Assembly: GCF_007829525.1 (NCBI RefSeq)
Contig: NZ_VLJP01000012.1
Location: 120,411-184,410, forward strand
From: Mesorhizobium sp. J18
Lineage (GTDB): Bacteria > Pseudomonadota > Alphaproteobacteria > Rhizobiales > Rhizobiaceae
DNA length: 64,000 nucleotides
Direction: 5' to 3'
The notes below the pieces were generated by a model that was not told where the DNA came from, searched no databases, and worked only from the letters and a program-made list of their open reading frames with translations. Every line of letters starts with the position of its first letter. Position 1 is the stretch's first letter. Both the position numbers and the translations under genes were made by a program. This document shows positions 63,272-64,000 of this stretch, piece after piece.

Positions 63272-63294
63272 GCGCGGCTACAACCGGATTTCCG

Positions 63295-63325
63295 ACGGCG
63301 GGCCCCATGGCCCGCCGTTTTGTTT
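63295..63325 (+). terminator. Intrinsic terminator after the outer-membrane protein gene
   Basis: Ten-base arms ACGGCGGGCC (63295-63304) and GGCCCGCCGT (63309-63318) with CCAT loop, then TTTGTTT. It lies 24 bp past the stop. It separates this gene from serC. Confidence 0.95.
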
Positions 63326-63373: not shown

Positions 63374-63401
63374 TTGACGCCATGAGCGCAAACGCATATC
63401 G
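63374..63401 (+). promoter_or_regulatory. Candidate sigma-70 promoter of serC
   Basis: TTGACG (63374-63379) and ATATCG (63396-63401) with 16 bases between them. If used, transcription would start about 63407, at the beginning of the leader structure. Consensus-based only. Confidence 0.5.
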
Positions 63402-63406
63402 CCGTC

Positions 63407-63459
63407 CGTGGGCCACCCCTCCCCACCGAGGGGCTTGCTATCTGGAAGGATAGACCACT
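63407..63459 (+). promoter_or_regulatory. serC leader RNA motif (possible cis-regulatory element)
   Basis: The 53-base leader has a stem CCCCTC (63416-63421)/GAGGGG (63428-63433) with loop CCCACC. Its loop can pair with GTGGG (63408-63412), so a compact H-type pseudoknot is possible. Then a hairpin CTATC (63438-63442)/GATAG (63449-63453) with the Shine-Dalgarno GGAAGGA inside it. The same GTGG can also pair with CCAC (63455-63458) next to the start codon. It fits the alphaproteobacterial serC RNA motif described upstream of serC, identified here from memory. No known ligand. Seen directly: the repeats; function inferred. Confidence 0.65.
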
Positions 63460-64000
63460 ATGACGACTCTCGACGCACCCGGACTCCGTCCGGCCAATCC
63501 CAATTTCTCCTCAGGTCCTTGTGCCAAACGCCCCGGCTGGTCACTGGAGGCGCTTCGCGACGCTGCTCTCGGCCGGTCGCACCGTGCCAAGATCGGCAAG
63601 TCGAAGCTTGCTCGCGCGATCGATCTCACCCGCGAGGTCCTGCAGGTTCCCGAAACCCATCGCATCGGCATCGTGCCCGCGTCCGACACCGGTGCGGTGG
63701 AGATGACGTTATGGTCGCTGCTTGGCGCGCGCGGCGTCGACATGGTCGCCTGGGAAAGCTTCGGCTTGGGCTGGGTGACCGATGTGATCAAGCAGCTCAA
63801 GCTGCCCGACGTCCGCAAGATCGAGGCCGAATACGGCAAGCTCCCCGATCTCTCGCAGATCGATTTCGACCATGATGTGGTGTTCACCTGGAACGGCACA
63901 ACCTCGGGCGTACGGGTGCCGAACGCGGATTTCATTCCGGCCGACCGCAAGGGTCTCACCATCTGTGACGCCACCTCGGCGGCTTTCGCCCAGCGCCTCG
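63460..64000 (+). CDS. serC: Phosphoserine aminotransferase (cut by window edge)
   Basis: The first 180 codons are in the window, starting ATG at 63460: [78 protein letters not shown]. These match the long-form SerC of alphaproteobacteria. It uses PLP to transaminate 3-phosphohydroxypyruvate for serine and for pyridoxine. The catalytic lysine lies beyond the edge. In rhizobia serA normally follows. Confidence 0.95.

Follow-up and report, generated by a model that had tools for sequence, protein, structure and literature searches.

How does the short leader in front of serC control the genes that follow it, and which of its possible folds takes part? The question is raised by the last part of the window, by which we mean the whole stretch of 64,000 nucleotides that was analysed. 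The serC motif was described by Corbino et al. in 2005 as two stems with a promoter directly upstream (PMC1273637). A 2020 review treats it as an orphan riboswitch candidate, to which Greenlee et al. (2018) added conserved sequence and structures (PMC7266159). As the original prediction had it, no ligand for this leader is reported, at least in the literature that we found. The same prediction proposed that two incompatible folds compete at the ribosome-binding site, under the control of a ligand or of temperature: a pseudoknot between GTGGG and the loop of the first hairpin, and a pairing of the same GTGG with CCAC next to the start codon. We find support for the pseudoknot as a helix of three base pairs, and the serC leader is probably an orphan riboswitch.

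The leader and its promoter

The element matches the Rfam model of the serC leader (RF00517) at 63406-63458 over its full length (model positions 1-52), with 64.4 bits and an E-value of 6.5e-12, well above the gathering threshold of 35 bits. It is a real and ordinary member of the family, as had been recognised from the letters, and every sequence feature previously described is in place, including GTGGG at 63408-63412 and the P1 loop CCCACC at 63422-63427 (Table 1). It lies immediately 5′ of serC, whose ATG is at 63460, and in the genome to which the window belongs serA, encoding phosphoglycerate dehydrogenase, comes next. With RF00517 it shares this gene, both conserved hairpins, the Shine-Dalgarno sequence in the second, GNRA-capped hairpin, and a promoter immediately upstream. 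Two further RNAs are found on the forward strand of the window, a 6S RNA (RF00013, 29802-29956, 72.4 bits) and the alphaproteobacterial sRNA BjrC1505 (RF02356, 47258-47401, 72.2 bits), which ends in a strong terminator-like hairpin.

A scan with a strict consensus found no promoter at the leader. When 153 leaders are compared, conserved -35 and -10 boxes emerge at fixed positions, with TTGACG and TATCGC in the window. These positions suggest that transcription starts at about 63408, and hence that the first bases of the mRNA form the knot. A terminator-like hairpin at 63294-63319, 3′ of the upstream outer-membrane gene, fits with serC having its own promoter.

Table 1. Features of the serC leader, in window coordinates
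Feature	Position	Strand	Basis or remark
-35 box TTGACG	63374-63379	+	TTG(A/G)(C/A) conserved at -35 to -31 relative to 63409 (153 leaders)
-10 box TATCGC, 17-nt spacer	63397-63402	+	TA enriched at -12/-11 relative to 63409 (153 leaders)
Pseudoknot 5′ strand GGG	63410-63412	+	partner strand 63422-63424; pair 63410-63424 is G-C or, by double change, A-U; at predicted mRNA 5′ end
Loop L1, 2 nt	63413-63414	+	C63414 nearly invariant (column counts)
A opposite C63434, probable non-canonical seventh pair of P1	63415	+	A.C; G.U or G-C in variants
Hairpin P1	63416-63433	+	stem CCCCTC 63416-63421/GAGGGG 63428-63433, loop CCCACC; covariation
Pseudoknot 3′ strand CCC in P1 loop	63422-63424	+	pairs with 63410-63412
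Hairpin P2	63438-63453	+	stem CTATCT 63438-63443/GGATAG 63448-63453, GNRA loop GGAA; sequesters Shine-Dalgarno; compensatory changes
Shine-Dalgarno GGAAGGA	63444-63450	+	sequence; ATG 63460 follows 9 nt downstream
CCAC, possible alternative partner of 63408-63411	63455-63458	+	lineage-specific
serC (alphaproteobacterial type, TIGR01365)	63460-63999	+	runs past window end; serA (PGDH) next

A pseudoknot of three base pairs

The pseudoknot had been predicted with five base pairs, of which the inner three stand and the outer two do not. The inner pairs (63410-63424, 63411-63423 and 63412-63422) are intact in every leader examined and show no variation in a diverse set of 60. In that same set the outer pairs fail in 46 leaders (63408-63426) and in 37 (63409-63425). 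The five-pair form is also rejected on geometric grounds, as it leaves a single nucleotide (L3) to span the helix.

That said, the constancy of the three inner pairs is no proof by itself. Invariance alone is uninformative, and the pattern with which leaders were initially extracted demanded GGG and CCC. Four loci that escaped this pattern carry the missing evidence: L296, L313, L316 (Agrobacterium rubi) and L319 (A. salinitolerans) have a 5′ strand AGG and a loop strand CCU, which turns the G-C pair 63410-63424 into A-U. The A-U version is found in Agrobacterium and in a number of further Rhizobiaceae. With both strands left free, a search of the loci returned 281 GGG/CCC and 4 AGG/CCU leaders and no other combination, and a pattern scan across 148 genomes of the family gave 90 GGG/CCC, 6 AGG/CCU and one background match. 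The latter, a lone CCC/GGG, is a second match in its genome (G991) and was discarded. A change on one side only of 63410-63424 was found neither in about 280 leaders nor in the free scan of the 148 genomes; in a mixed-set pair count the pair changed on both sides with zero failures. Two SerC protein trees, both of them quick trees, imply three to four changes between the G-C and A-U states, at least two of them by well-supported branches. The pairing of the 5′ strand with the loop, for which an absence of covariation among homologues had been named as the refuting result, thus withstands the comparison, and the existence of the knot, as three base pairs, is supported by the sequences.

The stem on which the knot is built, P1, covaries strongly among about 150 distinct leaders and is probably longer by one pair than its Watson-Crick part. 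Across 181 leaders the combination at 63415/63434 is A/C in 167, G/C in 7, G/T in 6 and T/C in 1, and A never occurs with U. A protonated A.C pair is identical in shape to a G.U wobble. This equality, together with the alternation of A.C, G.U and G-C, suggests that 63415 and 63434 form a seventh pair of P1. With this pair included, the knot consists of a 3-bp helix, an L1 of two nucleotides and an L3 of three, in keeping with what is known of the geometry of H-type pseudoknots.

Column counts further reveal unpaired bases that are nearly invariant, the C of L1 and A-M-C in the loop, and so conservation goes beyond the needs of pairing. Taken with the compensatory change in the knot, this is a conserved, aptamer-like fold rather than a set of simple hairpins.

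The second hairpin and leaders that lack it

The second hairpin does contain GGAAGGA, as predicted, and it is conserved with strong covariation: a pair table of 151 leaders has compensatory changes at pairs 3-6 of P2, and the U-G and C-G pairs beside the GNRA loop that bears the Shine-Dalgarno sequence are conserved. In most leaders P2 follows the knot and P1 after 2-4 nucleotides.

However, P2 is not always present. Among serC upstream regions without an Rfam match, sub-threshold Rfam matches and extra matches to a model built from the knot core alone (R1), we found leaders in which the knot and P1 are present and a canonical P2 is missing (L137, L138, L184, L192, L208, L213, L246 and L248; L136 and L247 are doubtful). 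They belong to several families, and lie below the Rfam cut-off or are missed by it. Several of them have U-W-A-C-A after P1, followed by AAGGAUG as the Shine-Dalgarno sequence. In another, L207, P2 is retained with a long loop. The persistence of the knot in leaders with an absent or rebuilt P2 suggests that sensor and output are separable, with the knot as the sensor and P2 as one output among several. In L192, L213 and L248 the sequences GGCGCC, GGCGTC and GGTGCC stand just upstream of GGG, each complementary to a GGCGCC before the start codon. A closing stem made of these was dropped, since transcription is predicted to start only downstream of its 5′ half.

A proposed mechanism

We consider it reasonably likely that this is a cis-acting leader for the translational control of serC-serA, in which the knot senses a metabolite and P2 is the output. 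The operon would be transcribed from its own promoter, with the first bases of the mRNA at about 63408-63412. The 5′ GGG would fold back onto the loop of P1 (six base pairs and the A.C pair) to give a compact H-type pseudoknot, the sensing domain, and P2 downstream would hold the Shine-Dalgarno sequence. A small metabolite, most likely of serine or one-carbon metabolism, would bind the knot and stabilise the closed state, and less SerC and SerA would then be made. From the comparison of homologues this scheme takes the operon, the stems, the three knot pairs and the separability of knot and P2; it supposes the transcription start, the direction of control, the existence of a ligand and its nature as a small molecule, not a protein. 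The knot and P2 share no bases, and the route by which a signal might pass between them is not visible in the sequence.

A more specific version is possible, and we put it forward tentatively. A minimal H-type knot made of the first nucleotides of the transcript would be a true riboswitch for an intermediate of the serine pathway, for example 3-phosphohydroxypyruvate or O-phosphoserine. It would have been overlooked since 2005 as the RNA was cut inside the knot, and the leaders without P2 would be a second class, with the same aptamer and no hairpin at the ribosome-binding site.

The RNA assayed in 2005 spanned nucleotides -46 to +11, and it did not respond to L-serine, L-threonine, PLP or four vitamers (PMC1273637). 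In A. rubi and A. salinitolerans position -46 falls on the G that immediately follows the A of AGG. If the spacing is equal in A. tumefaciens C58, the assayed RNA was without the first pair of the knot, which we think is probably the case. Had it begun at the second base of the knot, the published negatives would not exclude the compounds tried. A supported 3-bp knot formed by the first bases of the transcript defines the RNA that a fair ligand test needs, and the natural exchange of G-C for A-U is a ready design for breaking and restoring the pair.

Occurrence and possible control by a protein

In Rfam model searches RF00517 passes its threshold in 256 of the 297 genomes searched from the same order and in 111 of 385 genomes of the class Alphaproteobacteria. 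The R1 core model matches 131 of the 385, once per genome, and a sample of the phylum gave no R1 match outside the class. In the loci examined the core lies directly before serC, and the single match per genome in the class and phylum-sample searches leaves no sign of other target genes. Upstream of many other serC genes there is no vestige of it. One weak Rfam match (L139) was rejected as false. In Rhizobium tumorigenes (L407) the leader and serC-serA are carried by a replicon whose record calls it a plasmid (NZ_CP117258.1). A serC gene on a Deinococcus proteolyticus plasmid (NC_015170.1, 51525-52145) has 71.8% DNA identity to Agrobacterium serC over half of the query, a possible transfer between phyla.

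Could a protein be the ligand instead? An RNA-binding protein, perhaps SerC or SerA itself, might bind the domain of the knot and P1 and hold P2 closed or open. The 2005 authors proposed protein control by analogy to PyrR (PMC1273637). One operon in one class, with one copy per genome, is what autoregulatory leaders look like and fits a self-binding protein as well as a metabolite; every SerC found with the leader is of the TIGR01365 type; and the failure of all seven small molecules in 2005 (PMC1273637) speaks for a protein and against a metabolite. However, serC_2, the gene of this SerC type, is present in 304 genomes and the knot core in only 131, so that many genomes have the same SerC without the leader, and the present analysis turned up no candidate protein. 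On balance we regard protein control as rather unlikely.

Alternative pairing and temperature

The pairing of GTGG with CCAC is feasible in the window, and the nested minimum-energy fold is predicted to use it. It is kept in Mesorhizobium-like relatives, and CCAC occurs in 5 of 68 distinct leaders of the GTGG type against none of 93 of the GCGG type (p=0.012 ignoring phylogeny). But these 5 are all that can form the pairing among 161 distinct leaders (about 3%), so that it is rejected as a general alternative fold, although it may have a lineage-specific role. Nor would a toggle of GTGG between the P1 loop and CCAC make the proposed switch: the two pairings are mutually exclusive, yet P2 is closed in either fold, and their exchange alone neither opens nor closes the ribosome-binding site. 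We find such a toggle very improbable as the mechanism. Least credible is an RNA thermometer, in which P2 would melt to free the Shine-Dalgarno sequence: P2 is of modest stability (median about -5.7 kcal/mol) with a U-G pair adjoining that sequence, but pairing of the Shine-Dalgarno alone leaves several things unaccounted for: the invariance of bases in loop, knot and linker, the compensatory change in the knot, and the leaders that have a knot and no P2. The temperature-controlled switch originally envisaged, in its pure form, does not account for the invariant bases of loop and linker either.

Relation to known systems

Relative to the two-stem motif of Corbino et al., the present analysis adds the compensatory A-U pair, the A.C/G.U seventh pair and the leaders without P2 below the Rfam cut-off. 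The pseudoknot itself may already have been drawn by Greenlee et al. (2018), and priority may well belong there. PyrR-type leaders resemble the serC leader as short leaders before one biosynthetic operon, and differ in having an identified binding protein.

The preQ1-I and SAM-II riboswitches are small H-type pseudoknot aptamers in leaders, with an output at the level of translation in many cases. The serC leader, too, has a small H-type pseudoknot, and SAM-II likewise starts near its promoter (PMC1273637). There is no relation in sequence, however, and in contrast to both the serC leader has a knot strand with which the mRNA is predicted to begin and keeps its Shine-Dalgarno sequence in a separate hairpin.
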